Assembly: GCF_001437355.1 (NCBI RefSeq)
Contig: NZ_JQBM01000001.1
Coordinates: 350,294-414,293, forward strand
Length of the DNA: 64,000 bases
Reading direction: 5' to 3'
Source: Weissella viridescens
GTDB taxonomy: Bacteria > Bacillota > Bacilli > Lactobacillales > Lactobacillaceae
Both the position numbers and the translations under genes were made by a program. Positions 22,885-50,615 of the stretch are shown piece by piece. The notes under the pieces are model-generated. The model did not search any database. It saw only the letters and a program-made list of their open reading frames with translations, and was not told where the DNA came from. Numbering within the stretch: position 1 is the stretch's first letter; each line of letters opens with the position of its first letter.

Positions 22885-23496
22885 ATGGCTGAATCAAATC
22901 AAATTGCAATTCTCAGGTACATCCATGAACAACAAACAATGACTGGATATGCCCCAACCGTACGTGAAATTGCCGAACATGTCCACTTAGCCTCAACCGC
23001 AACCGTGCATGGTCACATCAATCGCCTAATCAAAAAAGGATTATTAACAAAAAAAGCGACCAAATCTCGCTCTTTTCATGTGACCCCTAGCGGATTACGA
23101 GTGCTAGAGCAGGCTCCAGCATCCCTAAATATGGTTCCGCGCTTTGATCCAGATAATAACATTGAAAATCAAGATGATGTTGATTACATTCCTGTTCCTG
23201 AACAATGAATCGCCGATCAAGACGCCTTCTTCATCGTTGCCCAACAAAATGAAACCATGATTGAACTAGGTATTTTGCCTGGAGATATGCTAATCGTCCA
23301 CCGGCAAGACACTGCTCAGGATGGTGACATTATTTTAGTCGACTTACCTGAACACCCCAAGCAAGTCTATCGTTTTTTTCATGAGGCTGACCATTTTCGA
23401 CTTGAACCCGAAAACACCAAACTCACGCCAGTAATCTCACGTTCCTTAACGATATTAGGTAAAGTCAAAAGTCTATATCGTCCAAACATTCAATAA
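22885..23496 (+). pseudogene. lexA: LexA homologue with in-frame stop and lost protease site
   Basis: The frame encodes a LexA of normal total length (203 codons) but codon 108 is TGA (23206-23208), between VPEQ and IADQDAFF. The first 107 codons hold an intact winged-helix DNA-binding domain (YAPTVREIAEHVHLAS, TVHGHINRLIKKGL). The second part is the LexA/S24 fold (MIELGILPGDMLIV, FRLEPENTKLTP, LTILGKV). It has lost the Ala-Gly cleavage site (DPDNN occupies that loop), the catalytic serine (GDSM is replaced by NETM) and the catalytic lysine (VKR is replaced by VYR). So autocleavage was probably gone before the stop arose. The ATG lacks a ribosome site. A truncated DNA-binding fragment might still be made. 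Confidence 0.88.
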
Positions 23497-49386: not shown

Positions 49387-50544
49387 CTATTTTAATAGGT
49401 CAATTTCATCTGTATCAGCGCCAGCATTTTCTCCTGAATCAGCTAACTTAGCCTCATCTGAATCTTCTGATCCATCGTGTTCTCCAAGATAAGCATTCCG
49501 AACGCGGGTATAGATTTCATCATAAATGGCTTGGTGCTCAGGATCCTCTAGCCAACGAATAACATTAACCTTACCTTGACCAATTTTTTCACCATTGTAT
49601 GCAAACCAAGAACCAGACTTATCAATAATATCCTTATCTACTGCCAAATCAATCATTTCGCCGGTCTTTGAAATTCCCTTACCGAACATAATCTCCAGTT
49701 CAACTTCACGGAATGGGGCTGCAACCTTGTTCTTAACAACCTTGATTCGAGTCAAGTTACCGATTGACTTGACGTTGTCTCCATCGGCCTTAGTCGCATC
49801 AATACCACCCTTACGACGAACGTCTAGACGGACAGAAGAATAAAACTTAAGTGCTCGTCCACCTGGTGTTGTCTCGGGATTACCGAACATCACACCAATC
49901 TTTTCACGCAATTGATTGATGAAAATGACAGTTGTTCCTGTCTTAAGGATTGATCCTGACATCTTACGCAAAGCTTGTGACATCATTCGAGCTTGTAGTC
50001 CCACTGTTGAATCACCGATTTCACCATCAATTTCAGCCTTTGGTGTCAGTGCCGCAACAGAGTCAACAACCACAAGATCGACCGCTCCAGAGCTAATCAA
50101 TTCATCAGCAATCGCTAGCCCTTGTTCACCAGTATCTGGTTGTGAAAGCAACAATTCATCAACATCAACCCCAAGTGCACGAGCATATTGCACATCAATT
50201 GCATTTTCCGCATCAATATAGGCAACAATTCCCCCATTTTTTTGGGCTTCAGCCGCAGCATGCAAAGCCAAAGTCGTCTTACCTGAAGATTCAGGACCGT
50301 AGATTTCAACAATTCGACCCTTAGGGTAACCGCCAATACCTAACGCAATGTCCAACTTTAATGAACCTGTTGAGGTTGCTTCAGTTTTGGTAAACTTGCT
50401 GTCACCCAACTTCATGACAGAACCCTTTCCAAATGACTTTTCAATCTTCTTTAATGCATCATCCAGCGCTTTTTCACGGTCCTTTTGATTCTCAATACGA
50501 CCTTCAATTTTTTTATTAGGATTAATATTTTTTCCACTTGCCAT
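49387..50544 (-). CDS. recA: Recombinase RecA
   Basis: The protein has 385 residues. It catalyses strand exchange and normally triggers LexA cleavage. The Walker A motif is [13 protein letters not shown]; Walker B is [10 protein letters not shown]; loop L2 region [22 protein letters not shown] spans two blocks. The C-terminal acidic tail is long ([17 protein letters not shown]). It is one of the best conserved genes here. GGAGG precedes the ATG. It follows cinA/pncC as in many Firmicutes. Confidence 0.98.
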
Positions 50545-50585
50545 CTTAAACGCCTCCGTTTGTTAACTTTAACTTAAGTAAAACT

Positions 50586-50615
50586 AGTATACAACTAATT
50601 TACACCGAACTGCAA
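50586..50615 (-). promoter_or_regulatory. Promoter of recA without a clear SOS box
   Basis: Minus strand: -35 TTGCAG (50610-50615), 18-bp spacer, -10 TATACT (50586-50591). The gap between cinA and recA contains only a half-match, GAAC/GTTC, and no full CGAAC-N4-GTTCG LexA site. Confidence 0.6.

Follow-up and report, generated by a model that had tools for sequence, protein, structure and literature searches.

A repressor–peptidase pair has probably taken over SOS control from a protease-dead LexA in the genus of Weissella viridescens

Introduction

The textbook bacterial response to DNA damage is switched by LexA and RecA. To our knowledge, it is chiefly in Deinococcus that an XRE repressor and a metallopeptidase are known to have replaced LexA. 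The stretch of Weissella viridescens DNA analyzed here (64,000 nucleotides, referred to as the window) contains a lexA orthologue at positions 22885 to 23496 of the forward strand (203 codons plus stop) that is interrupted at codon 108 and has lost its protease residues. If this LexA can no longer cleave itself, what controls the SOS genes of the organism, and is the answer peculiar to one gene or common to the genus? An earlier note, made from the sequence of the window, had called the gene doubly broken and had proposed that the lineage gave up a LexA-type SOS response. Here we compare the window and 28 genomes of the genus with outgroup genomes.

Results

Read through its internal stop, the lexA frame passes the NCBIfam lexA model TIGR00498 (120.1 bits against a cut-off of 110.95) and matches Pfam Peptidase_S24 with 61.9 bits. 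As the earlier note had reported, codon 108 of this otherwise full-length frame is TGA (23206 to 23208, forward strand), and the frame that follows contains no further stops, including an open frame of 79 aa from an internal ATG (23257 to 23496, forward strand). The winged-helix DNA-binding domain ahead of the stop, covering residues 5-62 (22897 to 23070, forward strand), matches Pfam LexA_DNA_bind (PF01726) with 55.4 bits, in agreement with the intact helix-turn-helix described before. Alignment with 129 outgroup LexAs places Asn-Ile in the Ala-Gly cleavage column, Thr124 (codon at 23254 to 23256, forward strand) in the catalytic Ser column and Tyr162 (23368 to 23370, forward strand) in the catalytic Lys column, so that the three protease changes originally noted were recovered by alignment. 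The note had also named a complete second lexA as grounds for abandoning its reading; profile searches of the 1.54-Mb genome at E ≤ 0.001 returned this locus as the sole LexA_DNA_bind match and the sole Peptidase_S24 match, and therefore found no second lexA. A second self-cleaving S24 repressor was likewise discarded as the replacement, since the W. viridescens genome has none. Extra S24 matches in other genomes cover no more than 51 of the 116 profile positions, one in G023 (75 positions) excepted, and we take most of them to be signal peptidases.

Within the genus the internal stop occurs in the W. viridescens genome only, one of 25 lexA genes, and the frames of the 24 other members are open. 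A Trp codon (TGG) had been expected at position 108, but 22 of the 24 other rows have Leu or Ile in that column, which is poorly aligned in the very short LexAs of G017 and G018, and Trp finds no support. Against the sister species, the sequence behind the stop (dN 0.058) is no less conserved than codons 1-70 (dN 0.079), so the stop looks recent; among the unambiguous changes after it, one falls on the branch of the window species and three on that of the sister, with five undecided. The stop in W. viridescens is thus probably a young one. It is an even bet that the TGA has no regulatory meaning and is either a wrong base in the assembly or a pseudogene mutation at the level of the strain, given that it is a single codon, unique among 25 genes, and is followed by open and conserved sequence. 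Nothing decisive speaks against such an origin, but it would leave the genus-wide findings untouched. An in-frame TGA is also present in a lexA of a different genus (L140, genome G118), where Ala-Gly, Ser and Lys are intact.

The loss of protease features extends far beyond the window. lexA was detected in 25 of the 28 genus genomes by protein search and the TIGR00498 model, and is missing from G002, G015 and G025. The Ala-Gly site is found in none of the 25 genus rows, and no row has both catalytic residues, Ser being present without Lys in four and Lys without Ser in six. In the Ser column these rows have T, N, A, S, H or D, whereas in the Lys column they have Y, K, A, G, L, S or D. By contrast, of the 129 outgroup rows, which comprise 124 distinct sequences, 128 keep Ala-Gly, Ser and Lys (5 of 134 LexA hits, with HMM scores of 80 or less, were dropped from the alignment). 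We therefore predict with high confidence that LexA is protease-dead throughout the genus. The description of the W. viridescens gene as doubly broken holds for both lesions, but the protease loss is not peculiar to it, with 0 of 25 genus genes intact; the suggestion that the protein was already non-cleavable before the stop arose is consistent with this distribution. The one outgroup exception, L155 of G184 from another genus of the family, lacks Ala-Gly, Ser and Lys, its recA has no LexA box, and its residues mark it as a dead LexA of independent origin.

Plain decay, which the earlier note had considered for lexA, does not fit these genes. Whole-gene dN/dS (NG86) is 0.016 for G006/G008, 0.011 for G006/G005, 0.088 for G019/G024, 0.114 for G010/G024, 0.154 for G001/G013 and 0.17 for G020/G013, and it does not exceed 0.27 in any pair that could be estimated, dS being saturated or without an estimate for many pairs. 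Because of these values, decay was rejected for the genus as a whole. Mean tree distances for whole LexA are 1.82 within the genus and 0.99 among outgroups, whereas for the first 72 residues they are 1.39 and 1.36; as these distances indicate, it is the C-terminal part that has drifted between distant species and not the DNA-binding part, the residues of which are conserved in the genus. Purifying selection wherever it could be measured argues for another job, and the protease-dead LexA has probably been retained in a non-SOS role as a non-cleavable DNA-binding protein. Retention is not universal. In the RecA tree the lexA-less genomes G002 and G025 form one sister pair and the equally lexA-less G015 forms another with the lexA-bearing G004, which implies at least two losses of the gene.

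We then asked whether SOS promoters of the genus still carry LexA boxes, defined as GAAC-N4-GTTC with at most one mismatch. No GAAC-N4-GTTC occurs in the 64-kb window. At lexA itself, a box lies between -73 and -121 in 13 of 13 outgroups and in none of 25 genus promoters; four of the 25 have a one-mismatch box, all outside that interval, and none has an exact one. Outgroup recA promoters contain 15 exact and three one-mismatch boxes among 23, compared to no exact and one one-mismatch box among 27 in the genus (the recA rows L212 and L221 were left out for want of a GPESSGKTT match). The five outgroups without a recA box are G062, whose LexA is intact, G184, whose LexA is degenerate, and G044, G054 and G060, which have no lexA over the TIGR00498 cut-off. 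These last three members of the family also show no match to the peptidase profile described below. At umuC the box is present in 11 of 12 outgroups and in none of 22 distinct genus loci, drawn from 20 genus genomes plus three loci, one of them a repeat of G010. The contrast is less clear at dinB, where 12 of 18 outgroups have a box with up to one mismatch, as against 1 of 27 genus loci, in a set that includes one misplaced start (L248). One genus dinB promoter, L247, has a site resembling the operator described next. Among the genus loci read, none has an exact LexA box at lexA, recA or umuC, which supports the proposal that a LexA-type SOS response was given up: the lineage appears to have abandoned LexA control of its SOS genes.

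In place of the LexA box, recA and umuC promoters of the genus share a 15-bp palindrome, TTARNTTWAANYTAA, which was first noticed at umuC and then refined on 27 recA and 20 umuC promoters. In the window, recA occupies positions 49387 to 50544 of the reverse strand (385 codons plus stop, matching TIGR02012), and its promoter contains a good copy of the palindrome, TTAAGTTAAAGTTAA on the recA strand, at 50563 to 50577, as well as a second and weaker copy, TTAGTTGTATACTAG, at 50584 to 50598 on the same strand, the latter including a -10-like TATACT hexamer. The exact palindrome is present at 19 of 27 genus recA promoters and none of 23 outgroup promoters, and at 14 of 20 genus umuC promoters and none of 12 from outgroups; the remaining 8 recA and 6 umuC promoters of the genus have inexact sites. 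Scored with a position weight matrix, recA promoters reach 12.2-20.6 in all 27 genus members and at best 6.5 in the 23 outgroups, and umuC promoters reach 11.8-22.3 in all 20 genus members and 14.0 in one of 12 outgroups (L280), although the matrix was trained on these same genus recA and umuC promoters and the contrast with outgroups is thereby flattered. When recA promoters were shuffled with a first-order Markov model, 5 of 1080 shuffles reached a score of 12. G008 is not in the recA promoter set, and a pattern match adjoins its recA. A first, 16-letter consensus separated genus from outgroup umuC promoters poorly and was replaced by the 15-position matrix.

Genome-wide, the exact pattern occurs 10 times in W. 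viridescens versus 3 times for a reversed control, and 192 versus 125 times over all genus genomes, a modest enrichment; the control exceeds the pattern in G004, G015 and G021 and equals it in G017, G022 and G025. The case therefore rests on where the sites lie and not on how many there are. Outside the training set, the exact pattern also precedes a umuC carried by a W. cibaria conjugative plasmid, a gene with an 80 % match to the umuC of G017. Y-family polymerase matches number five each in G017 and G018, above other members of the genus. The palindrome is found at recA in G002, G015 and G025 as well, and since these genomes have no lexA, its binder there is not LexA. A LexA with a new specificity was accordingly ruled out as the binder in those three genomes. 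From the promoters compared, we predict with high confidence that the operator at recA and umuC was swapped in this genus.

RecA itself has changed in the genus. Between the conserved RR and GN, the loop measures 17-20 residues in 27 of 27 genus members and 11 in 23 of 23 outgroups; in the window its 17 residues (245-261) are encoded at 49762 to 49812 of the reverse strand. We take the loop to lie at the position of E. coli G229, just before R243. Strong LexA contact has been described around both of these E. coli residues (PMC3834820). The ratio of genus-to-outgroup over among-outgroup distance is 1.74 for RecA, compared to 0.97 for the neighboring PgsA, but the other control gene, CinA, is raised as well (1.54). 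The stem leading to the genus in the RecA tree is long (1.76). Divergence and the longer loop fit a RecA released from its LexA partner, without being proof of it. The opposite possibility, that LexA of the genus still runs the damage response from sites of a different sequence after being cut by another protease, would account for the conserved residues of its DNA-binding domain and for purifying selection on lexA in measurable pairs. We regard it as very improbable: the recA and umuC operator persists where lexA is gone, Ser, Lys and Ala-Gly never occur together in any genus row, and RecA is altered near the zone of LexA contact.

What, then, might bind the new operator? An XRE gene with a 121-128 aa product (HTH_3, E 3.4e-14) carries a site at its promoter in all 28 genus genomes, with best scores of 11.8-20.6 and often two boxes about 20-30 bp apart. 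These promoters were outside the matrix training set, and against shuffles, 30 of 1120 of which reach 11.8, their sites are weaker than those at recA. Directly 3' of the XRE gene in all 28 genomes is a gene for a putative peptidase, and the two frames overlap by 4-14 bases in 27; in G018, with the start chosen by script, they are separated by 22 bases. The second gene is present as a single copy in every genus genome (E 5e-67 or better), and its profile found two weak matches in 44 outgroup genomes.

With moderate confidence, we propose that the XRE protein is the repressor of the SOS genes. A palindrome at a regulator gene is no proof that this regulator binds it, and XRE proteins are common, one with identity below 60 % being present in 209 plasmid records, so the palindrome could belong to some other regulator and the XRE-peptidase operon be merely another member of its regulon. 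This is unlikely, however, given that among the neighbors listed XRE is the regulator seen repeatedly next to the sites and has a site at its own promoter in every genome, that the peptidase paired with it tracks the palindrome across the genus and is matched at most weakly in outgroups, and that in the three genomes without lexA the binder cannot be LexA.

The presumed partner of the XRE repressor is a protein of about 151 aa, its genus frames spanning 151-165 codons with 149-151 profile positions matched. It shows similarity to the PHROG 87 metallo-protease (E 2.7e-7 in G009, 3.6e-6 in G006 and 1.8e-4 in G000) and carries an EExxH motif, with E68, E69, H72 and E92 invariant and Glu in place of the first His of HExxH throughout an alignment of 26 of the 28 genus proteins (G006 and G008 were left out). 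The best match to the Pfam M78 family PF06114 reaches 13.2 bits, below the cut-off of 22, and hhalign gave 34 %, a weak profile match. AlphaFold models of the peptidase and the XRE protein were poor (mean pLDDT 46 and 56), and a fold search with them returned no matches. The outgroup protein L400, which also has EExxH and weakly matches the genus profile, passes the M78 cut-off with 29 bits versus 22. The invariant residues of the second protein fit an M78 peptidase whose first His has become Glu; with PF06114 below its cut-off, hhalign at 34 % and unusable models, the assignment is likely rather than proven.

Of the first five loci read, four (G000, G001, G002 and G006, but not the G009 stretch) have the peptidase gene adjoining a gene read as gapA, and this neighbor, together with the single copy, speaks for a core chromosomal gene, although the operator is also found at some integrase genes. 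A phage origin was set aside, the phage collection having yielded a single weak match; close matches on viral contigs sit at one contig end and look like host flank.

That the peptidase provides the means of inactivating the XRE protein is put forward with lower confidence than the repressor role. The altered first zinc ligand in 26 of 26 aligned rows and the absence of any Pfam match over cut-off would suit a repressor whose companion is no active protease, de-repression coming instead from contact with RecA or single-stranded DNA or from housekeeping proteases. The invariance of E68, E69, H72 and E92 and the M78 score of the EExxH protein L400 tell against this, as does the layout of the locus, a two-gene operon of repressor and peptidase like that of ImmR/ImmA (PMC10233336), and we consider an inactive companion rather doubtful. 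We presume that the peptidase is active and that DNA damage would be the signal to which it responds.

Sites of the new operator are also found before other genes. Among the matches listed for G000, site-bearing promoters include those of recA, umuC, two phage-type integrases, AddB and a DNA/RNA endonuclease, along with that of a YolD-like protein gene whose Pfam match is below cut-off. Two further sites in this genome precede a small membrane-type ORF 3' of the peptidase gene, and one lies about 200 bp 5' of a TrkH gene. Among those listed for G006 are recX, a topoisomerase and integrases. Phage-type integrase genes directly preceded by the operator, among the matches listed, are L340, L348, L354, L356, L358, L364, L366 and L368, four of which were run against Pfam; it is as if prophages had adopted the damage switch of the host. 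Small ORFs 3' of the peptidase gene (some of L371-L395, among them L381) encode about 60-90 aa including a hydrophobic stretch, with one or two new operators upstream in many genomes. Such an ORF could, we presume, encode a damage-induced division inhibitor like YneA. The addBA genes are among the LexA targets reported for Lactobacillaceae (PMC3616900).

Discussion

We consider it probable that a switch of the DdrO/IrrE or ImmR/ImmA type took over the SOS regulon from LexA in this genus. In such a switch the XRE repressor would most likely bind TTARNTTWAANYTAA ahead of its own operon as well as at recA, umuC and further genes, and the peptidase would most likely cleave or displace it after DNA damage, as IrrE acts on DdrO and ImmA on ImmR. 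No longer needed for SOS, LexA would have lost self-cleavage in or near the ancestor of the genus; the non-cleavable protein would then have been kept in most species, but its gene would have disappeared on at least two occasions and, in W. viridescens, recently acquired a stop that truncates the product. A fuller account, to which we lend somewhat less weight though still favoring it, has a domesticated ImmR/ImmA-like pair running recA, umuC, recX, addB and integrases genus-wide, with the LexA-facing loop of RecA changed and RecA sharply diverged, dead LexA kept for another task, and prophages and plasmids using the host operator as their damage signal. The swap would predict how Weissella prophages sense damage, and 28 genomes with intermediate states, in which dead LexA is kept, lost or truncated, would make the handover of a global regulon testable.

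Compared with the canonical LexA/RecA response of Lactobacillaceae and Bacillus, the genus shares the targets recA and umuC, but at these two genes an exact LexA box is missing and a different operator is found. LexA of Synechocystis PCC 6803 has lost the catalytic Ser and the cleavage-site Ala and was proposed to have left SOS (PMC3091678). That case concerns one species, with Gly-Gly and Asp at the affected positions, whereas here a whole genus is involved and the residues vary; and while the accessible portion of PMC3091678 names no replacement regulator, the XRE/peptidase pair is a candidate here. In W. cibaria, LexA repression of the dextransucrase gene dsr was proposed from a RegulonDB matrix (PMC9498152), a claim open to doubt should the SOS response of the genus not be run by LexA. 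A Weissella XRE protein described elsewhere is a 76-residue antitoxin with a Bro toxin and belongs to a different pair (PMC11638225). Among the literature matches listed, from a search whose scope left out most subscription journals, none described a replacement of the SOS switch in Weissella.

A known system reminiscent of the proposed switch is DdrO/IrrE (PprI) of the Deinococcus radiation and desiccation response, in which an XRE repressor is paired with an M78-type metallopeptidase, a palindrome is found at recA, other repair genes and the repressor gene, and recA does without LexA in D. radiodurans (PMC8072749). The XRE protein of the genus, at 121-128 aa, has the size expected of a repressor of about 130 aa, and by matrix score the palindrome is likewise found at recA (27 of 27) and at the XRE gene (28 of 28). 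Unlike IrrE, the peptidase leaves no room at about 151 aa for a C-terminal GAF-like domain and has EExxH in place of HExxH. Sequence similarity between the two systems is weak, with E about 0.005-0.01 to DdrOC; a better PDB match is 2kpj (3e-12), labeled LexA by its depositors. The Deinococcus operator differs in sequence from the genus palindrome, and the hosts are Deinococcota in one case and lactic acid bacteria in the other. ImmR/ImmA and relatives, with adjacent repressor and peptidase genes as here, are known to be induced by DNA damage in ICEBs1, TnSmu1 and prophages (PMC10233336). They have been described for single mobile elements, whereas the peptidase of the genus is single copy and the probable operator lies at recA, umuC, recX and addB. 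Because operator, peptidase size and zinc motif differ, we do not file the genus pair as a member of either DdrO/IrrE or ImmR/ImmA; if the proposed takeover is true, it would represent a second, independent replacement of LexA, in lactic acid bacteria.
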